Positions 11,566-21,708 of a DNA stretch of 64,000 nt are shown here, piece after piece (the first letter of the stretch is position 1; each line of letters begins with the position of its first letter). A program made the position numbers and the translations under genes. The stretch spans positions 1 through 64,000 of the forward strand of contig REDR01000079.1 in the NCBI GenBank assembly GCA_007693385.1. Direction: 5' to 3'. Source of the DNA: Anaerolineaceae bacterium. Its GTDB lineage: Bacteria > Chloroflexota > Anaerolineae > Aggregatilineales > Phototrophicaceae. The notes beneath the pieces were generated by a model. It made no database searches, was not told the origin of the DNA, and saw only the letters and a program-made list of their open reading frames with translations.

Positions 11566-11970
11566 TCAACCGTATGACATCGGCTCATCCAGACGCAACC
11601 ATGTGCGCCCGATGCGGAACAACATGCCCGGACGCAGGCTCACCCGCCCACTGATCGGCTCTTCTTCGCGCTCTAAAAATGTGCCGTTACGACTGCCCCC
11701 GTCTTCCAGCCAGAAAGTCAGGATGAAGGGGTTCGTCACCGAGTCGCTACTGGTGGTCGGCACGGAGACGCATCCCAGCTTGGCGTGCAGGCGCGACACC
11801 TGATTATCAACCGGAATATGCACGTCGCATCCTTCGCGCCGCCCGATGGTGATGATGCGCTCCTCGCCAAACATCGGCTGGTCAAACGACAAGCGCTTGC
11901 CATCGAACGCGCCACTCATGTATGTGACGGAAATCTCGCGGTTAGGAATCGGTGGGGTGGGAAAGCTCAT
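11566..11970 (-). CDS. FHA-domain protein
   Basis: A 134-residue single-domain protein that binds phosphothreonine peptides. All FHA hallmarks are present: the GRREGCDVHI strand (43-52) with the conserved Gly-Arg, VSRLHAKLG (58-66) with Ser59 and His62, and DGGSRNGTFLE (90-100) with Asn95. It lies 13 bases after the TPR-kinase gene and is the last gene of the clpC-kinase-FHA operon. The natural guess is that it reads phosphothreonines written by that kinase; this is inference from linkage. GGAG six bases before the ATG supports the start. Confidence 0.92.
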   Translation of the reverse strand: MSFPTPPIPNREISVTYMSGAFDGKRLSFDQPMFGEERIITIGRREGCDVHIPVDNQVSRLHAKLGCVSVPTTSSDSVTNPFILTFWLEDGGSRNGTFLEREEEPISGRVSLRPGMLFRIGRTWLRLDEPMSYG

Positions 11971-11983
11971 TCTGTTCTCCGGT

Positions 11984-14900
11984 TCAGTTTAATAAGTCTA
12001 ATTTCTGCTGTGATGGCGTGTGTTCCGGGTCAATCGTCAGCGCCTTCTGTAATACTTCCCGCGCATCATCCCGCCGGTTGACTTGCAGAAGCGCCTCGCC
12101 GTAATTGTGCCAGAACCACACGTCGCGCTCGTCCTGTCGCAGGGCGGCCTCGTAACAGATGATCGCCTCCGCCCAGCGATTCAGCGCCCCCAGACACAGC
12201 GCCTTGCCATTCCACGCCCACGCATAGCGATCATCGAGCAGGAGCGCCTCGTCGTAGCTCTGGATTGCTTCCTCGTGGCGGCGCAAACGGCGCAAGATTT
12301 GACCGCGCCGCGCCCATAATACCGCGTTGTTAGTGTGGTCAGTCAAGAGATAATCCACCAGATCAAGCGCCTCGTTGATGCGCTCAATGTCGATCAAAAT
12401 ATCAATCTGGTTGACCACATACCCGATGATCTTCGGGTCTTCCTGTGCGGCGCGTTCGTAATTAGCCAGCGCCTCCTCGCGGCGGTTCATCATCTTCAAC
12501 GTCAGGCCGCGCCCGTTCCACGCCCACGCATAACGCGGGCTGATCTTCAACGCGGTATCAAACGCGGTCAGCGCTTCGTCGTAGCGGCGCAACTTACGCA
12601 ACGCCTGCCCGCGCTTCGCCCAGCTTTCGGCGTGATTATCGTCCATCATCAGCGCCCGATCCAGCACGTCCAGCGCCTCCTCGATGCGATCCAGCGTGAT
12701 GAGTTCGTCGGCCAGATTGTAGTGATACCATACGTCGGCGTCGTTGATGTCGATGGCGGCCTGAAAACATTGGCCGGCTTCTTCGTGTCGCCCCAATGAA
12801 CTCAACGTCAGGCCGCGCCCACTCCATGCCCAATCGTTGTGCGGCTCGATCTCAACCGCACGATCATAGCGGGCGAGTGCCTCGTTCGCACGTCCCAAAC
12901 GCCGGAGAACCTGCCCTAACTGCGCCCAGATTTGCGCGTTGTCGCCATGCGTCAACAGCGCTTCTTCCAGCAGATCGTGCGCGTGCTGATGACGTTTGAG
13001 CCGCATCAGCACATCGGCCTGCTTGTACACGTAAAACGGCTCGTTCAGGTCAAGATGCGATGCCTGATGATAAGCGTCCAGCGCTTGCTCGTAATGCCCG
13101 ATGGCTTCCAGTATCGCCCCCATCTCGCTCCATGACCACGCATACCGCGCCGCGTGATGGGTGGCGTTATTCGCCGCTTTCAGCGCCGCCTCGTGCTGGC
13201 CGGTATTGTTCAGCGCGTGCGCCAACCGCGTCCAGCTACGGGCGTGCTTGGGGTTGATGCTGACCGCCTGCTGTAGCGGCTCGATGGCCTGCGCGTAACG
13301 CCCCAGCAATACCAGCACATTCCCCTGATTGTACCAGTGCCAGATGTCCTCCGGACGGATGTCCGCCGCCTGCTGGTAACAGGTCAGCGCTTCCTCGTGT
13401 CGCCCCATGTTTTCCAGCACAATCCCCTTGCCGTTGATCGCCCATGCCGATTCCGGCTCTAGCGCGATGGCGCGGTTATAAGCGTCCAGCGCCTCGTCGT
13501 AGCGCTCCACATAACGCAAGACCTGCCCCAGCTTCGACCAGCTAAAGACGTGCGTCGGGTCGCTCTGCGTGGCGCGGATCGCTGGCTGTACCGCCTCTTG
13601 ATATTGCCCTAATTCCACCAGCGTATCGGCCAGATTGTACCAGTGCCACACGTCATCGGGCTGGTAACGTGCCGCCCGCCGGAAGCAGTCCAGCGCTTCG
13701 CGTGTTTTGCCCAGCGCCTTGTGTGACAGTCCACAGCCGTTATGCGCCCACGCATAGGTCGGCTCTAGCCGGATAGCCTGCTCGTAAGCGTGGAGCGCGT
13801 CCTCGTAGTGCTTCAGCGTGCGGTGCAATTGCCCCAGCTTCGCCCAGCTTTTAGCGTGGCCGGATGCGATCTGCAAGCCGCGCTCCAATAGCGGGATCGC
13901 CTCTTTCAGCCGCCCTAGATTCTGCATGGCGTCGGCGCGATTGTACCAGTACCACACATCATCGGGATAAAGCTCGGTGGCCGTCTCGAAGCATTCCAGC
14001 GCTTCCTCGATGTGGCCGGTGCGGTCTAAGATGATGCCCTTGCCATTCCACGCCCACGCATACTGCGGATCAATGCTCAGCGCGTGGTCATAGCAGGCCA
14101 GCGCCGCGTCGTAGCGTTCCAGCAGGCGCAACGTGCGCCCCTTCCGCGCCCACGCCCACGCATAATCCGGCTGTAGCTGGATCGCCTGATCGTAGGCTTC
14201 CAGCGCTTCGTCGTAGCGCTCAAGCGCGGTCAGCGAATACCCCTTGTCCAGCAATTCCCGCGCTTGCAACGCCGGGCCGGTGATTTCCAGCACTGGCGGC
14301 TCGCCGTTGGTGTCGGTGTAGACCGTCGTCAATTCCTGAACGATGTTTTCCCATGTGGGCGGGCGATTGTTGGGGTTCTTCTCCAAGCACGCCATGACCA
14401 GCGCTTGCAGATCACGCGGTAGCGCTCGCTTGTACTTGATGTCAAACGCCGGTTGCTGGTTGATGTGCGCCGCCAACCACTGGTCAAAATCCCGCGCCTG
14501 AAACACGCGCTGGCCGGTCAGCATCTCATATAGCACCGTCCCGAAGGCGTAAATATCACTGCGGATGTCCACGTCTTTCGATTGTCCCTGCTCCGGCGAC
14601 ATATACGGCGCGGTGCCGACGATAGCGCCGCCCCGCGTCAGGCGGTCACTGGGGTTGATGTGCTGGTCATCTAGCGGCGCGTTGATGCTCAACGGCTCGT
14701 CCAGATCAATCGAGCGCACCAGCCCGAAGTCGGTCACTTTAGCGATGCCCTCATGCGTGACCAGAATATTGGCCGGCTTCAAATCCCGATGCACCAGTCC
14801 GGGCACTTTGCCCGTCGCGTGCTTCATGCCCAGCGCGATATGCAACGCGAAATCTAACGCCTGCGTCACGCTGATGCGGCGCTGGTCAATCCAGCTTCGC

Positions 14901-15976
14901 AAATCCGACCCCATGCCTTCCGCCCCGCTTATCAGTTCTAGGACGATATGCGGGCGATCCTGTATGCTGTGAACCAGTAGCGCCTGTACGATGTGGCGGT
15001 GCTTTTCCAGCCTCAGCCACGTCAGCGCCTCATGCGTGAAGCGCTTGATGGCGCGTTGATTATCCAGAAAGCGCCCTTGAAAGCTCTTGATGGCGACTGG
15101 CTCACGATTTTTGTGATCGTAACACCGGTACACCACGCCCATCCCGCCCCACAGCACTTCGGTCACTTCATAGCGCCCGTCGATGCGCTCGCCGGTGGTG
15201 AATTCGCCCATCTGTGAAGCGGTCTGGCGGGCGATACCCACGCCCGCGCCACTCGCCCCGCTAATGCTCCCCGTGCCGCCGTCTACGTTGGTCGGCGGCG
15301 CTGAGTGGCCGCCGGTCACGCCTGATTGCAGATCGTCGTCGCGTCCGACATCGGCCACTGTCATCGACGCATCGCTATCCGGCCACGCCAGATGCACGTC
15401 GGCGGCGGTGGCGTCTTCGTTGTCCGGCCTGCTGTCGTCACCGTTGAACGCTACCGCGTGGCCGATCACCTCGCGCTGATACGCCTCGATCACCGCTTTC
15501 AACAGGCGGCGATGCTCCGTGACCAGCGTCGGGCGACTCTCGTCATCGCCGCCCGCCCATAACGCGCTGGCGAGATTGCGCGACGACGGAAACGCCCGCG
15601 CCGTCTCCAGCGTCCATGTGATGAATAACTCCACTGCGCGACGGGCGACGGTGCGATCTACGTCATTCTGTGCTTTGGTCAGCGCCCGCCGATAAGCGGT
15701 CAGCGTTTTGCCGATGTAATACACCAGCAAGCGCACCCCATCCCCGCGCACGCTCAACGATTGCAACGCGCACAGATCACCCAGCGCGAACAGGTCGTTG
15801 ATGTCATCGCGCCGCAACGCCAGCAACCCCAGCCGCCGGATTGTCGGGTGCTGGTCAGTAGCGAATAGATCGCTCTGGTCGGCTTCGCATGGTTGCTTCA
15901 GCGCCCGTTTCGCCGCGTTATCATGCATGGGTAGCGGCTCGCGGTGCGTCTGCGGGATGACCGGTATCTCGCTCAT
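11984..15976 (-). CDS. Ser/Thr protein kinase with ~22 TPR repeats
   Basis: A soluble 1330-residue signalling protein. Residues 1-260 form a helical N-terminal region and a low-complexity linker. The Hanks-type kinase spans about 269-540: Lys297 in VAIK, HRDLKPAN (396-403), DFGLV (416-420) and APYMSPEQ. The glycine loop reads VLWGGMGVVY, one residue short and lacking the first glycine of GxGxxG, so nucleotide binding may be atypical. From about 560 to the C-terminus, roughly 22 tetratricopeptide repeats follow, most with the pattern YAWAWNGKG or VWYWYN at helix A. Its ATG overlaps the clpC stop (ATGA), so the two are translationally coupled. The TPR array probably gathers client or partner proteins; partners are unknown. 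Confidence 0.93.
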   Translation of the reverse strand: MSEIPVIPQTHREPLPMHDNAAKRALKQPCEADQSDLFATDQHPTIRRLGLLALRRDDINDLFALGDLCALQSLSVRGDGVRLLVYYIGKTLTAYRRALTKAQNDVDRTVARRAVELFITWTLETARAFPSSRNLASALWAGGDDESRPTLVTEHRRLLKAVIEAYQREVIGHAVAFNGDDSRPDNEDATAADVHLAWPDSDASMTVADVGRDDDLQSGVTGGHSAPPTNVDGGTGSISGASGAGVGIARQTASQMGEFTTGERIDGRYEVTEVLWGGMGVVYRCYDHKNREPVAIKSFQGRFLDNQRAIKRFTHEALTWLRLEKHRHIVQALLVHSIQDRPHIVLELISGAEGMGSDLRSWIDQRRISVTQALDFALHIALGMKHATGKVPGLVHRDLKPANILVTHEGIAKVTDFGLVRSIDLDEPLSINAPLDDQHINPSDRLTRGGAIVGTAPYMSPEQGQSKDVDIRSDIYAFGTVLYEMLTGQRVFQARDFDQWLAAHINQQPAFDIKYKRALPRDLQALVMACLEKNPNNRPPTWENIVQELTTVYTDTNGEPPVLEITGPALQARELLDKGYSLTALERYDEALEAYDQAIQLQPDYAWAWARKGRTLRLLERYDAALACYDHALSIDPQYAWAWNGKGIILDRTGHIEEALECFETATELYPDDVWYWYNRADAMQNLGRLKEAIPLLERGLQIASGHAKSWAKLGQLHRTLKHYEDALHAYEQAIRLEPTYAWAHNGCGLSHKALGKTREALDCFRRAARYQPDDVWHWYNLADTLVELGQYQEAVQPAIRATQSDPTHVFSWSKLGQVLRYVERYDEALDAYNRAIALEPESAWAINGKGIVLENMGRHEEALTCYQQAADIRPEDIWHWYNQGNVLVLLGRYAQAIEPLQQAVSINPKHARSWTRLAHALNNTGQHEAALKAANNATHHAARYAWSWSEMGAILEAIGHYEQALDAYHQASHLDLNEPFYVYKQADVLMRLKRHQHAHDLLEEALLTHGDNAQIWAQLGQVLRRLGRANEALARYDRAVEIEPHNDWAWSGRGLTLSSLGRHEEAGQCFQAAIDINDADVWYHYNLADELITLDRIEEALDVLDRALMMDDNHAESWAKRGQALRKLRRYDEALTAFDTALKISPRYAWAWNGRGLTLKMMNRREEALANYERAAQEDPKIIGYVVNQIDILIDIERINEALDLVDYLLTDHTNNAVLWARRGQILRRLRRHEEAIQSYDEALLLDDRYAWAWNGKALCLGALNRWAEAIICYEAALRQDERDVWFWHNYGEALLQVNRRDDAREVLQKALTIDPEHTPSQQKLDLLN

Positions 15977-18384
15977 TTCGGCCTCGCCTCAAACGCCAGA
16001 ACCCCGTCCTGCACATCGGCGATGATGTGGCATCCCCCGCCGAATTCATCGGCCACGATCCGCGCACTTAAAGGCCGCGCCAGCAAACGCTCAATCGCAC
16101 GTCGCAGTGGCCGCGCCCCGCTTTCGGCGGTGTGGCCGTTCTCCAATATCAACTGGCGAGCTTCCGGCGTCAACTGCAATGTGATGTCCTGCTCGTTGAG
16201 GCGCTCGTGTAGCTCGTTCAGCCGTAAATCCAATATCGCCGATAGCGTCGCCATATCAAGCGGGCTGAACGTGATGACCTCATCGACGCGGTTCAAGAAC
16301 TCTGGCCGGAAGAAGCGATTCAGATAACCGGAATAGTCGATCTGTTCGCGTGGTGCCGCGCCGAAGCCGATGGACTTCGCGCCTTCCTCCGTGCCGATGT
16401 TGCTGGTCATGATGAAAATGGCGTGGCGAGCATCCACCGAGCGCCCGTGCGCGTCGCTGATGCGCCCCTCGTCGAACACTTGCAGGAAGATGTCGAACAC
16501 CTGCGGCGCGGCTTTCTCCACCTCGTCCAGCAATACCACGCTGTACGGACGGCGGCGCAGGCCGTCGGTCAGTTGACCGCCGCGTGTGTTGTCACGGTAT
16601 CCCGGCGGCGACCCGATCAGGCGGGCGACGGTGTGCGCCTCGTGGAACTCCGACATATCCAGCCGCAACATCGCATCCACACTGCTGAACAGAAACACCG
16701 ACAACGCGCGGGCTAGCTCCGTCTTGCCGACGCCGGACGGCCCCAGAAACATGAATACCCCGATAGGGCGGTTCGGATCGCCCAGACCAGCCCGCGCTGT
16801 CTTGATGGCCGCCGCCACCGCCCGCACCGCTTGATCTTGCCCGATGACCCGTTCTAGCAGGGCGTCCTCTAATGTCGAAAGTCGCCGCTTTTCATCGGTG
16901 GTCAACTCCGAGACCGGAATCCCCGTCCATTCGGAAAGCACCGCCGTCACGTCGCTCACCTTCACATCGTTCGGCGCGTCCTCAAGATCGGGCGGGGTGG
17001 TGCGGATGATGACGCGGGTACACGCCTCATCCAGCAAATCCAGCGCCTTATCCGGCAGGCGTCTATCCGGCATATAACGCACCGACAACCGCACGGCGGC
17101 GCGGATGGTGTCCTCCTGAATCACGACGCCGTGATGTTCTTCCAGCTTTTGCTGTTGCGCCGTCAGTATCACCACCGTCGATTCTTCTGACGGTTCTTCG
17201 ATTTCAATGGTACGGAAGCGGCGATCAAGCGCCGGGTCCTGCGCGATGGCGCGGCGGTATTCCTCGTGGGTGGTCGCGCCGATGCACTTGATCTCGCCGC
17301 GTGCCAGCGCCGGCTTGAGGATGTTGGCCGCGTCCAGATTGCTGTCGATGGTATCGCCCGCGCCGACAATCGTGTGCAGTTCATCCACGAACAGGATGCA
17401 ATTACCGGCGTTTCGCACCTCGTCGATGATGCCGACCAGCCGTTCCTCGAATTGACCGCGCAGGCTGGTTCCCGCCACCAACGCGCTGATCTCAATTTGC
17501 ACAATCCGCATATTCATCAGCGACGGCGGCGCGGTGCCCGCGTGAATCTGGTGCGCCAGCCCCTCCACGACGGCGGTCTTGCCGACCCCCGCATCGCCCA
17601 GCAATAGCGGGTTGTTCTTCTTGTTACGCGCCAGCGTCCGCGAGATAGCCCGCATTTCGCTATCGCGGGCGACTGCCGCGCTGATCTTGCCTCTGCTGGC
17701 CTGCGCCACCAGATCGCGCCCGTATTTATCCAGTAGCGGCGTCGGCTGTTTGCGCGGATCACTGTTGAGCGTCTTCTTGCCGAATGGTGACGTACCGCCG
17801 AAGCGTGAACGCCCGAAAATCCCCTCACGCGGGAAGCGCGGCGCTTCGGGCGGCGGTGATAGGTCGAATTCGTCGTCGTCATCGTCGAATAGGTCGAGCA
17901 GGTCGCTATCGTCGTGATATTCTTCTACCGCGTCATGCTCCTCCGCGATCAACGTCTGTACCCAGTGGTTGACATCAAACCCCATCTCCACCAGCTTACG
18001 CACCGGCACGCCTTCGCCTTCTTGCAATAGCGCCATCAATATCTGATTGTCCATCGCCTGCACCACTTCATCCTGATCGGCCAGAAAGACCGCCAGCGAT
18101 AGCACCATCTCCGTGCGCGGTGTCATCGGCAAAACCTGACTCAGGTTGCCTTCGCCGCGCCCGATTTCGCGCCGAATCTCGTTGCGAACCTCACGCGGAT
18201 TCAACTCCGCACGGCGCAACAGGCCGCATGTGATGCCCTGTTCGCCCCGCGTCAGCGCGATGAACAGATGCTCCGTCCCGATGTAGTCATGCCCCAGACG
18301 ACGGGCTTCTTCGGCGGCGGCTTTCAGGATGTGGCCGCACCGTTCGCGGATTTCTTTCTCTGGGATTTCTGGTGATTGTGACAC
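15973..18384 (-). CDS. clpC: ClpC/ClpA-like AAA+ unfoldase
   Basis: A double-ring AAA+ unfoldase (803 residues). Residues 1-145 are a Clp N-domain, followed by an acidic linker (~150-175, runs of Asp/Glu). D1 has Walker A GDAGVGKT (263-270) and Walker B ILFVDELH (330-337). D2 has Walker [10 protein letters not shown] (548-556) and Walker B VVLLDEVE (616-623). There is essentially no middle coiled-coil domain between D1 and D2, unlike ClpB. An IGF tripeptide (672-674) stands where ClpA and ClpC carry their ClpP-docking loop, so it probably feeds a ClpP protease rather than acting as a ClpB disaggregase. No clpP is nearby. The start is a GTG at 18384 with AGGA 6 bases upstream. First gene of an operon with the TPR kinase and FHA protein. 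Confidence 0.88.
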
Positions 18385-18551
18385 GCTTTTTCCTATAAAT
18401 TTGATAAATCAAGATCATTAAATCGCGCATGACGCGCCGTTTTTTCGCTGATGAGCGCAATGACCGGCCACTTTTGCTGACTAAAGCCGGTGACGCCCGT
18501 CTGTATTTTAACGCATTACGTCTCAATTTCGATATTTTTGTCAAAACACTA

Positions 18552-18580
18552 TGAGACAATCAGCCATAACGCGCTATAAT
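18552..18580 (+). promoter_or_regulatory. Candidate promoter of the transmembrane kinase gene
   Basis: A consensus TATAAT at 18575-18580 lies 37 bases before the kinase ATG; TGAGAC at 18552-18557 is a poor -35 at 17 bases. The rest of the divergent gap 18385-18616 holds a short inverted repeat TTGAT-AA-ATCAA just upstream of clpC and otherwise nothing I recognise. Confidence 0.4.
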
Positions 18581-18616
18581 ATCCCCTGTGTGTCCGCCCG
18601 AAAACCGAGATGATCT

Positions 18617-20464
18617 ATGAACGACGCGCTGATTGGCAAGAAGTTAGGCGAATACGAAATCGAATCCCTGCTAGGTCGGGGCGGTATGGCACGGGTATAT
18701 AAAGGCTATGACCGGAAGCTCGACCGCTACGCCGCTATTAAAGTGATCGAATCTGACAAGATTGCCACAGAAGAAGACGAAGAATACCATGATCGCTTCC
18801 TGCGTGAAGCCCGCGCCATCGCCCGCCTGCATCATCCCAACATCGTCGGGGTATATCAATTCGGCGATATGGACGATCTATACTACATGGCGATGACCTT
18901 CATCGAAGGCCGTGACCTGCGCCAGATTATCAAACAAACGCAAAGAGAAAACAAGGTGTTAAGTCACGCGCAAATCTTGCGCGTCATGCGCGATATTGCC
19001 GCCGCGCTGGATTACGCACACGGGCAGGGCGTCATTCACCGCGACGTGAAACCGTCAAATATCATGGTCACACGCGAAGGCGGCCATTGCATCCTCACCG
19101 ACTTCGGGCTGGCGCTTCGCACGCAAGAGGGCACCATCGGCAACACCTTCGGCAGTGTCCACTACATCGCGCCGGAGCAAGCGGTATCATCCGCGCAATC
19201 CGTCCCGCAAAGTGACCTGTATTCGCTGGGCGTGGTACTGTACGAAATGCTCACCGGGCGCGTGCCGTTCGATGATAGCTCCGCGATGAGCGTCGCGCTC
19301 AAGCACATCAGCGACCCGCCGCCGCCCGCCAGTTCCATCAATCCCGATGTATCGCCTGCGGTGGAGGCCATGCTGAATCGTGCGCTGGACAAACAGCCGC
19401 CGCGCCGCTATCCCTCCGGCAGATTATTTGTGCAGGCGCTAGAGGCCGCGCTGGAAGCCACCGAGCAAAAGCCCGACCATGCCGACATCGAGTCCCGTTC
19501 GCTCTCTAATCTGGCGCTATCCACGCAGGAGCGCGAACAGATCGAAGAGGGCGCATCATCGCCGGATGATCTGTGGCCGTCTGCGGATGACGACGACACG
19601 CGCAAGCTAGGCACACAATCGCAGAAATCGCGCCCCATCGTCTTGACCGCGCTGGACCGCACCGACTCCCGCGCCCAACCGCCACGCGCCGAACCTTCCG
19701 CGAGCGGCTCGCGGCGGGCGCTGTGGATGGCGCTGATGCTGGTCGCTTTGCTGGCCTTCGGCGGGCTGATTCTGCTCACCGGCATTTTTGACGGCGGCGA
19801 TGATGTCGATGTGTTGTTGAGTGAGGCGGAATTAGAGCAGACCGCCGTCGCATTGGCCGCGCTCGATGACGAAGGCGACGAAGAAGACACTGACGAACCA
19901 GCAGACCCGACGCCGACGGTTACTTCAACCGTAACCGCGACGGAAAGCCCGACGGAAACGGAAGCCGAACAGCCGACCCCATCCAACACCGCGACGCCCG
20001 AACCGGAAACTGCGCCGGTTACCGCTACGCCGACTCCCTTCATGGTGGATGCGTCCGCGCCCGGTGAGCCGCCGCTTTTGCTGTACTACACATCACAGCA
20101 ATTCATCATCTACAATCGCTCCGCGTCAGCATCGCGCAATATTGACGTGCGCCGCCTATCTTTCAACAACCCGCAGACCGCCGTTTCATTCGCTTCGCCG
20201 CAATGGACTTTCGACGCTTCGCGCTGGCGGATGCGCCCGCAGATGGATTGCTTCCAGATCATCGACAGCGGCCTGTTTGAAGTCACCAGACCGGCGTTCT
20301 GCCCGTTCTTGCAAGCGTTCGAGCGCCTGCAAAATCCGTTCTGGCGCGGCGATGATGAAGATGAAATGTTTGAAGTATTCTGGGATTCGGAGCGCGTCGC
20401 GTTATGTTCGACGCTCAAGCCGGATGATCCCGAACCGGCCTATTGCCTCGTCACGTTGCCCTGA
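18617..20464 (+). CDS. Transmembrane Ser/Thr protein kinase
   Basis: A PknB-like receptor kinase of 615 residues. The cytoplasmic kinase domain covers 1-280, with an intact glycine loop LGRGGMARVY (19-28), Lys42 in AAIK, HRDVKPSN (141-148), DFGLA (162-166) and APEQ. A juxtamembrane linker follows, then one membrane helix near 370-392 (ALWMALMLVALLAFGGLILL). An acidic and Thr/Pro-rich spacer leads to a ~100-residue extracytoplasmic beta-rich domain that begins LLLYYTSQQFIIYNRS. That sensor domain is not PASTA. It is divergent from clpC and its stop is 2 bases from the stop of the following convergent gene. It may signal to the neighbouring clpC-kinase-FHA operon, but this is only proximity. 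Confidence 0.93.
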   Translation: MNDALIGKKLGEYEIESLLGRGGMARVYKGYDRKLDRYAAIKVIESDKIATEEDEEYHDRFLREARAIARLHHPNIVGVYQFGDMDDLYYMAMTFIEGRDLRQIIKQTQRENKVLSHAQILRVMRDIAAALDYAHGQGVIHRDVKPSNIMVTREGGHCILTDFGLALRTQEGTIGNTFGSVHYIAPEQAVSSAQSVPQSDLYSLGVVLYEMLTGRVPFDDSSAMSVALKHISDPPPPASSINPDVSPAVEAMLNRALDKQPPRRYPSGRLFVQALEAALEATEQKPDHADIESRSLSNLALSTQEREQIEEGASSPDDLWPSADDDDTRKLGTQSQKSRPIVLTALDRTDSRAQPPRAEPSASGSRRALWMALMLVALLAFGGLILLTGIFDGGDDVDVLLSEAELEQTAVALAALDDEGDEEDTDEPADPTPTVTSTVTATESPTETEAEQPTPSNTATPEPETAPVTATPTPFMVDASAPGEPPLLLYYTSQQFIIYNRSASASRNIDVRRLSFNNPQTAVSFASPQWTFDASRWRMRPQMDCFQIIDSGLFEVTRPAFCPFLQAFERLQNPFWRGDDEDEMFEVFWDSERVALCSTLKPDDPEPAYCLVTLP

Positions 20465-20466
20465 TT

Positions 20467-21708
20467 TCACGGCGCGGATAACGTCGCGGTGGGGATGGCC
20501 GCAGGCGGCGCTGAGCCGGACGGCGTGCCGGTGAGGATCAAGAACGCCGCCACCAGCGCAATCACCACCACCACGACGGCCAGCACCGTCAATGACTGGC
20601 TATCGCGCTCGGCGTCGTGCGATGGCGGCGCGTCGCCCGCTTCCAACCGCGCATTTTCCAGCATCCACGTCTGCAATAATCCCGGGCGCACGCTCAGCTT
20701 TTGCGCCGCGTTGCCCTCCACCAGTTGGCGATATTCTAGGCCGCGAATGGCGGCATGAATCGCGGTCAAATCCAGCGTGTAATCGGTACGCACCAGCCAC
20801 GCTTCGATGTCGCCCGCCGCCACCGGACGCAACGGGTCGGCGTAGATCAAACTGCTGATCGCCGTCAACACCAGCCGTTCATCTAGCGTCAAATCCGCCC
20901 ACACCGCATGAAACGCCGCTTTGCGCCCGTCGTAGATGTCCCGCCTGACCGCCTTCACATCCGCCGCGCCCACCGCGCCACCCGCCGGTAATGCCGCCAT
21001 GAACGCCGCCAGCAGGGACGGCTCGCCGCCGGTGGCCTTGTAAATCGCCGAGATCGCCGCCGCGTCGTATTCGGCGCGGGCTTGCCGGAGCGCTCCGGCG
21101 GTTTCCGCCGCGTCCAGATTGCCCAGCCGTTGAAATTGATCCGGCGTGGTGATCGTGTTGAATAGTTCCAGTCGATTCTCATACGCGATGCTCAGCGTCA
21201 GCACGACGGCGCATTGCGGATGACGTAGATCATCCAGATACGCGAAGTAATCTTCGGCCAGCGTGTCGCGCATCATCGTCTCGACCAGCACTTCGGCGTC
21301 GTCCAGCAGGAACACCAGCCGCCGCCCGCGATGGATGACGCGAAAAGCCGCCGTCAGGAACTCATCACGAAACCACTGCTTGAGCGTCGCCGCGTCCGCG
21401 TCCGGTGGCCGCCTTTGGGCTAGTGTCGGGATGAAATCATACGCGCTCAGCGTCGCCTCCGTGTGACTGTATAGCGCGTCCAACCATGCGATTTCATCGT
21501 CGGGGCGGATGTCCTTCAATGGCAGATACACCCCGATATGGTTGTCCGTCGGCATTCCGGCGAATTGCATCAATAGCGCGGTCTTGCCGATGCCATCGCG
21601 CCCGACGAAAGCCGGTACCGGCGTCCCCACCGGATCAGCGATGTGCTGACGGATGCGGGCGACGGCGCTCGCACGTCCGGCGAAGGGCGGTGTGTGTGGC
21701 GCGTTCAT
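20467..21708 (-). CDS. Tail-anchored STAND/AAA-like P-loop ATPase
   Basis: A 413-residue P-loop protein of the broad AAA/STAND ATPase group. Walker A GRDGIGKT is at 36-43 and Walker B LVFLLDDAEV at 131-140, followed by a helical region with a winged-helix look around 270-345. A single hydrophobic helix at about 373-393 and a 20-residue Pro/Ala tail end the protein, so it is probably tail-anchored with the ATPase in the cytoplasm. The specific family is not recognised. It is the last gene of a three-gene operon, 13 bases after the cytochrome gene, so a role in assembly or sensing at the membrane is possible but unproven. Confidence 0.75.
   Translation of the reverse strand: MNAPHTPPFAGRASAVARIRQHIADPVGTPVPAFVGRDGIGKTALLMQFAGMPTDNHIGVYLPLKDIRPDDEIAWLDALYSHTEATLSAYDFIPTLAQRRPPDADAATLKQWFRDEFLTAAFRVIHRGRRLVFLLDDAEVLVETMMRDTLAEDYFAYLDDLRHPQCAVVLTLSIAYENRLELFNTITTPDQFQRLGNLDAAETAGALRQARAEYDAAAISAIYKATGGEPSLLAAFMAALPAGGAVGAADVKAVRRDIYDGRKAAFHAVWADLTLDERLVLTAISSLIYADPLRPVAAGDIEAWLVRTDYTLDLTAIHAAIRGLEYRQLVEGNAAQKLSVRPGLLQTWMLENARLEAGDAPPSHDAERDSQSLTVLAVVVVVIALVAAFLILTGTPSGSAPPAAIPTATLSAP

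Follow-up and report, generated by a model that had tools for sequence, protein, structure and literature searches.

What is known of regulated proteolysis in bacteria concerns mainly adaptors (MecA, ClpS, SspB), phosphoarginine (McsB) and, indirectly, Ser/Thr kinases (PrkA-ReoM). Among the described systems, the PpkA/Fha/ClpV trio of the type VI secretion system (T6SS; PpkA, Fha, PppA, ClpV), in which a Ser/Thr kinase, an FHA protein and a double-ring Hsp100 are encoded together, is the known gene trio most like the set treated below; in P. aeruginosa, Fha1 of this system is required for the recruitment of ClpV1 (PMC3953482). In Listeria, the Ser/Thr kinase PrkA gates ClpCP proteolysis by phosphorylating ReoM, a small adaptor-like protein (PMC7286690), i.e., a Ser/Thr kinase can control Clp proteolysis through a small protein. 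Here, we report a three-gene module consisting of a Clp unfoldase, a Ser/Thr kinase with a long tetratricopeptide repeat (TPR) array and a stand-alone FHA protein in an Anaerolineaceae bacterium (assembly GCA_007693385.1, contig REDR01000079.1, positions 1 to 64,000 of the forward strand, hereafter the window). The almost all-or-none inheritance of the three genes across the order suggests an undescribed, phosphorylation-based choice of proteins for unfolding or degradation.

The module departs from both systems. Compared with the T6SS, it has no sheath gene, its Clp lacks the M domain and carries a ClpP-docking loop, its kinase has 22 TPRs, and no PP2C cluster turned up in its conserved neighbourhood. 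A T6SS origin was rejected, as the sheath gene VipB was found neither in the module's own genome nor in 151 related genomes, with an E. coli control that matched. The Listeria system, by comparison, has a kinase of the PASTA type, uses ReoM where the module has an FHA protein, and works with the housekeeping ClpC, the degradation being blocked by phosphorylation. The first-pass annotation of this DNA, which knew of no described system with this exact gene set, overlooked the T6SS trio; no description of a Clp/kinase-TPR/FHA set was found in the literature searched, whose coverage left out most subscription journals. A defence system was also considered and rejected: PADLOC gave generic kinase, TPR and AAA matches and no match at the level of a system.

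All three genes lie on the minus strand and are read from position 18384 down to 11566 in the order Clp, kinase-TPR, FHA. The Clp gene (15973..18384) has a GTG start and encodes 803 amino acids; the kinase gene (11984..15976) encodes 1330 and the FHA gene (11566..11970) 134. Open reading frames and domain matches confirm the three genes and their coordinates as first annotated, and the overlap of the Clp stop with the kinase start is real, an ATGA at 15973..15976 (minus strand) of which the same 4-bp form occurs in eight relatives. The FHA gene, which had been placed in the same overlapping operon, does not overlap: it begins 13 bp after the kinase stop, its start is preceded by GGAG, and only the Clp/kinase pair overlaps.

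To follow the three genes across relatives, one set of 151 genomes from the order and class was searched with each of the three proteins, and orthologue-level matches were counted. All three orthologues are present in 92 genomes, none in 50 and only part of the set in nine, so that the conserved co-occurrence which the first-pass annotation had suggested looking for is borne out. The Clp is present in 9/9 of the partial genomes, and in 0/151 does a kinase or FHA orthologue occur without it. Three genera (g11, g17 and g19) have none of the genes, and within one genus G013 lacks all three and G031 has all three. Please note that relatedness and physical linkage make these genome counts non-independent. 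As to gene order, 71 of 96 genomes have the kinase no more than 1.5 kb downstream of the Clp and on its strand, 70 of 92 have the FHA gene placed likewise behind the kinase, and the complete Clp, kinase, FHA order is found repeatedly across the order. The genes flanking the set differ from locus to locus.

The genes are separated and the complete set is kept in G006, G050, G105, G092, G126, G002, G009 and G139. Contig ends account for several of the separations. Real ones are the 115 kb between the Clp and the kinase-FHA pair in G006, three different contigs for the three genes in G050, a Clp-kinase distance of 10.7 kb in G105, and, in four genomes, an FHA gene relocated to the upstream side of the Clp. 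Unlinked orthologues had been named in advance as evidence against the idea of a joint module; they do occur, in about ten genomes, and since these same genomes retain the full set, the idea is not refuted. Taken together, co-occurrence, co-location and retention after separation mark the three genes as a real conserved functional unit: their linkage is not by chance, and it is well supported that they function together. In phylum-wide draws the kinase was found in 2/400 genomes, with no more than two candidates scored per genome. The canonical-looking matches of G147 and G148, from other families, were rejected as module members. A loose named-genome scan with generic kinase motifs listed 80 kinase loci among its matches, none of them near a Clp or FHA orthologue, which is not evidence of absence elsewhere. 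One genome, G044, has a complete module on C3 and a second Clp with a kinase start and a divergent kinase (L136, G044:C116).

The Clp protein has the Pfam domains Clp_N (E=8e-16), AAA, AAA_lid_9, AAA_2 and ClpB_D2-small, that is, a ClpC-type N domain followed by the AAA+ modules D1 and D2, whose Walker A/B motifs and pore loops are conserved in the orthologues as in the double-ring Hsp100/Clp family. Its best PDB match is B. subtilis ClpC/MecB (E 2.5e-192); in the alignment to B. subtilis ClpC both N-domain repeats and the ClpP loop are aligned and the M region is missing. It scores below the NCBIfam cut-offs for ClpA (TIGR02639, 662 vs 993 bits), ClpB (TIGR03346, 736 vs 1232 bits) and ClpV (TIGR03345, 664 vs 885 bits). 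The D1-D2 linker is 30 amino acids long, compared with 82 in the two canonical ClpCs encoded elsewhere in the genome, and it measures 28-35 in 56/57 module orthologues; therefore, the M domain is absent. In a D1-D2 tree the module Clps fall into a single clade (100/100) that is distinct from the canonical ClpCs, with long branches that leave the exact joins unsure. We rejected a housekeeping ClpC identity, as the two canonical ClpCs, each with the 82-residue M-domain region and an LGF loop, are present elsewhere, beside a degenerate third. The earlier designation "ClpC-like unfoldase" overlooked that the enzyme is a specialised M-less paralogue rather than the housekeeping one. An extra double-ring ClpC-like paralogue beside the housekeeping Clps is also known from Actinomycetota, where one subclass of ClpI keeps the LGF loop (PMC10149685); the M domain of ClpI has the length of that of ClpC, whereas the module Clp has none.

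The ClpP-docking xGF loop, SIGFG at residues 671-675, is kept in 55/57 orthologues (one of the other two sequences is cut off and one reads ISL), and judging from this motif the unfoldase is probably coupled to ClpP, for which the genome has a single gene, adjoining ClpX. The linker between the N domain and D1 is acidic in 57/57 orthologues, with a net charge of -1 to -18. The resting state of S. aureus ClpC depends on R443, a residue of the M domain (PMC12521514). Because the M domain, the holder of this state, is missing, the module Clp must be controlled or recruited otherwise, and the kinase and the FHA protein are natural candidates for its restraint or recruitment. McsB and MecA are known as partners dedicated to ClpC, which they activate and supply with substrates, working through its N and M domains. 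MecA-type control was rejected, no MecA being found in the genome; McsB was not searched for. The genome also encodes a fourth, divergent Clp paralogue of 755 amino acids without M domain or xGF (G000:C101:109872; L092:860-3127), 20 kb from tig-clpP-clpX, which is probably a ClpP-independent unfoldase.

The kinase begins with about 175 helical residues, followed by about 80 acidic, disordered-looking residues upstream of the Pkinase domain (residues 277-547); a fold model of residues 1-261 computed without an alignment reached a predicted local distance difference test score (pLDDT) of 42 and was not used. The VAIK lysine, HRD and DFG of Hanks-type Ser/Thr kinases are each found in 51/51 orthologues, and the LT...GT of the activation segment is invariant; with these motifs intact, the kinase is competent for the role proposed below. 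The TPR array (residues 572-1319; 12004..14263, minus strand) consists of exactly 22 repeats of 34 amino acids, where about 22 had been estimated. It is 766-769 amino acids long in 45/51 orthologues, and because of this constant length we regard the repeat number as fixed. Self-similarity within the array reaches 1.5-1.75 per residue at lags of 102, 204, 306 and 408, against about 0.8 for the remaining multiples of 34, i.e., the array follows a three-repeat order with a period of 102 amino acids. This order, like the conserved groove described next, had been missed in the first-pass annotation.

The groove of a TPR superhelix is lined by positions 2, 5, 6, 9, 12 and 13 of the repeat. In the module kinase these positions are more conserved (0.69-0.79) than the other non-structural or surface positions (0.53-0.56). 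Most repeats of one class, every third TPR, have Asn at position 6, another class has Asn at position 5, and the groove contains K/R. A groove conserved in this way speaks for a client, or a class of clients, that is itself conserved. The glycosyltransferase OGT is similar in that its catalytic domain also carries a long TPR superhelix whose groove has conserved Asn residues; this Asn ladder binds the peptide backbone of substrates and selects them (PMC8586251). OGT is, however, a eukaryotic enzyme with about 13 TPRs, compared with a kinase, 22 TPRs and a three-repeat order here.

The FHA protein is little beyond one FHA domain (E=5e-12, above the Pfam cut-off). The residues expected of a phosphothreonine-binding FHA domain (GR, SxxH and the N of NG(T)) are all present, R44, S59, R60, H62 and N95 being found in 50/50 orthologues, and the protein is competent as a phosphothreonine reader. 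Against FhaB/FipA (NF049868) it scores 36.6 bits, below the cut-off of 125, and a PDB search with it gave no match at E 1e-5. Most orthologues start a few residues ahead of the domain, with no conserved threonine-rich N-terminal tail. In one family the FHA orthologues end in an acidic DDLPF tail (L048, L049, L050, L053, L124 and L147); the family of the window lacks it.

How could the three proteins work together? At a probability of about one half, we read the module as a dedicated, phosphorylation-controlled unfoldase, with the kinase and the FHA protein as selector or adaptor of the Clp, which is our best reading of their role. The clients may be target proteins, the Clp, or the two together; the kinase would hold them in the groove of its long TPR superhelix and phosphorylate threonines. 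The phosphothreonine, whether it sits on a client or in the activation segment of the kinase itself, would then be bound by the FHA protein, which would form the bridge to the Clp N domain. Lacking the usual resting-state control of ClpC, the Clp would unfold the client and hand it to the single ClpP. We infer the protein contacts, the order of events, the direction of control, the involvement of ClpP and the nature of the clients. The first-pass annotation had proposed a phosphorylation-gated proteolysis module, and the conserved unit with its intact kinase, FHA site and ClpP-docking tripeptide speaks for it; switching of the Clp by the kinase and FHA protein, or remodelling without proteolysis, fits these features equally well. 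More tentatively, and with less confidence than in the dedicated unfoldase as such, the module may be a phosphodegron-like pathway of one order, in which the TPR kinase marks many clients, one FHA protein reads all marks, and the bound M-less ClpC paralogue degrades them together with ClpP.

Several points weigh against the dedicated unfoldase. The FHA protein carries no known Clp-binding motif, the G050 Clp orthologue has lost the xGF motif, and ClpP is common to ClpX and the other Clps, which leaves the docking loop as its sole tie to the module Clp. In incomplete genomes, physical linkage alone is expected to predict some of the joint absences. In the fragmented assembly G001 (L137, G001:C442), the Clp is directly followed by the FHA gene with about 180 bp between the open reading frames and the kinase was not found in the genome; it is possible that G001 lost the kinase.

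A nearly as good explanation, if a doubtful one in its own right, is that the kinase and the FHA protein assemble on the N domain or the acidic linker of the Clp and switch the hexamer on or off, replacing the M domain and MecA/McsB. The whole clade lacks the M domain, no MecA was found in the genome, and the invariably acidic N-D1 linker could dock on the K/R-containing TPR groove. Against it, the search covered MecA but not McsB, and 22 TPRs forming a superhelix whose groove is conserved speak for clients that are numerous or long, beyond the needs of a simple switch.

Improbable, in our judgement, is remodelling without proteolysis, in which the Clp would dismantle a signalling complex that the TPR kinase and the FHA protein hold together, as ClpV does with the T6SS sheath. 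The resemblance to the T6SS threonine phosphorylation pathway, with the same kinase-FHA-Hsp100 trio and the need of Fha1 for ClpV1 recruitment, is met by the near-universal xGF loop, whose retention would serve no purpose in a remodeller that works without ClpP, and by the lack of VipB matches in the 151 genomes.

A TPR kinase together with a small stand-alone FHA protein also recalls PknG with GarA or OdhI; PknG has far fewer TPRs than 22, and no Clp belongs to that system. The FHA protein could by analogy be the main kinase substrate and act on metabolism, with the Clp as a stress-coupled neighbour only. We regard this as very unlikely: PknG does phosphorylate OdhI at Thr14 (PMC2784874), and kinase-FHA adjacency is kept where the Clp has moved off, but the phosphorylated N-terminal tail of GarA/OdhI is not seen in the module FHA proteins, and the Clp is always kept along with the kinase and the FHA protein. 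Least credible of all is a neighbourhood conserved through shared regulation with no joint mechanism, for which one could cite the unrelated transport genes that adjoin and the ability of slowly rearranging genomes to conserve neighbourhoods, and against which stand the retention of all three genes after dispersal, their joint absence from a whole set of genera and the variable flanking genes.

The co-inheritance of a writer (kinase), a reader (FHA) and an unfoldase would allow a direct test of threonine phosphorylation as an FHA-read degradation tag in bacteria. The module Clps are, in addition, a ClpC branch without the domain thought central to ClpC control, and the restraint of such an enzyme is a testable question. 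If the phosphodegron analogue is true, one bacterial order would possess its own dedicated pathway of regulated proteolysis.

Upstream of the Clp, a transmembrane-type Ser/Thr kinase is encoded on the plus strand (18617..20464), as the first-pass annotation had stated in placing a second kinase divergent from the Clp. The two starts are 232 bp apart, and the intergenic region (18385..18616) has promoter-like sites on both strands, which are consensus matches only. This kinase is a frequent but optional neighbour: of the 42 loci in which it would fit, 25 have it divergent beside the Clp. Next to it lies an AAA_16 (STAND-like) ATPase with a C-terminal hydrophobic segment (20467..21708, minus strand), another optional neighbour, present in 18 of about 61 loci. 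The divergent kinase, which has a conserved Cys-containing C-terminal part, and the STAND-like ATPase (together 18617-21708) often adjoin the module and may be its sensor side.

Outside the class, the nearest kin of the module Clps are found in family f40, which belongs to another class of the phylum and has large genomes. There, an M-less Clp and a CHAT domain (Pfam PF12770, E 6e-14) are parts of single proteins of about 1200-1240 amino acids; such fusions occur in many f40 genomes (L233:1333-4740 in G199:C2, L236, L237, L238, L239, L244 and L250), and no kinase or FHA orthologue was found among their gene neighbours in f40. CHAT domains usually have the catalytic Cys motif LSACxT. In the fusions this motif is not visible and LVFVSHYESE stands instead, so the CHAT part may be inactive. 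In G443 (L246:5188-10859), the gene of an M-less Clp overlaps that of a 1169-residue TPR protein, with an Hsp70 gene 1.3 kb downstream. From the f40 fusions and this Clp/TPR overlap, it seems that M-less Clps have repeatedly been coupled to other modules.

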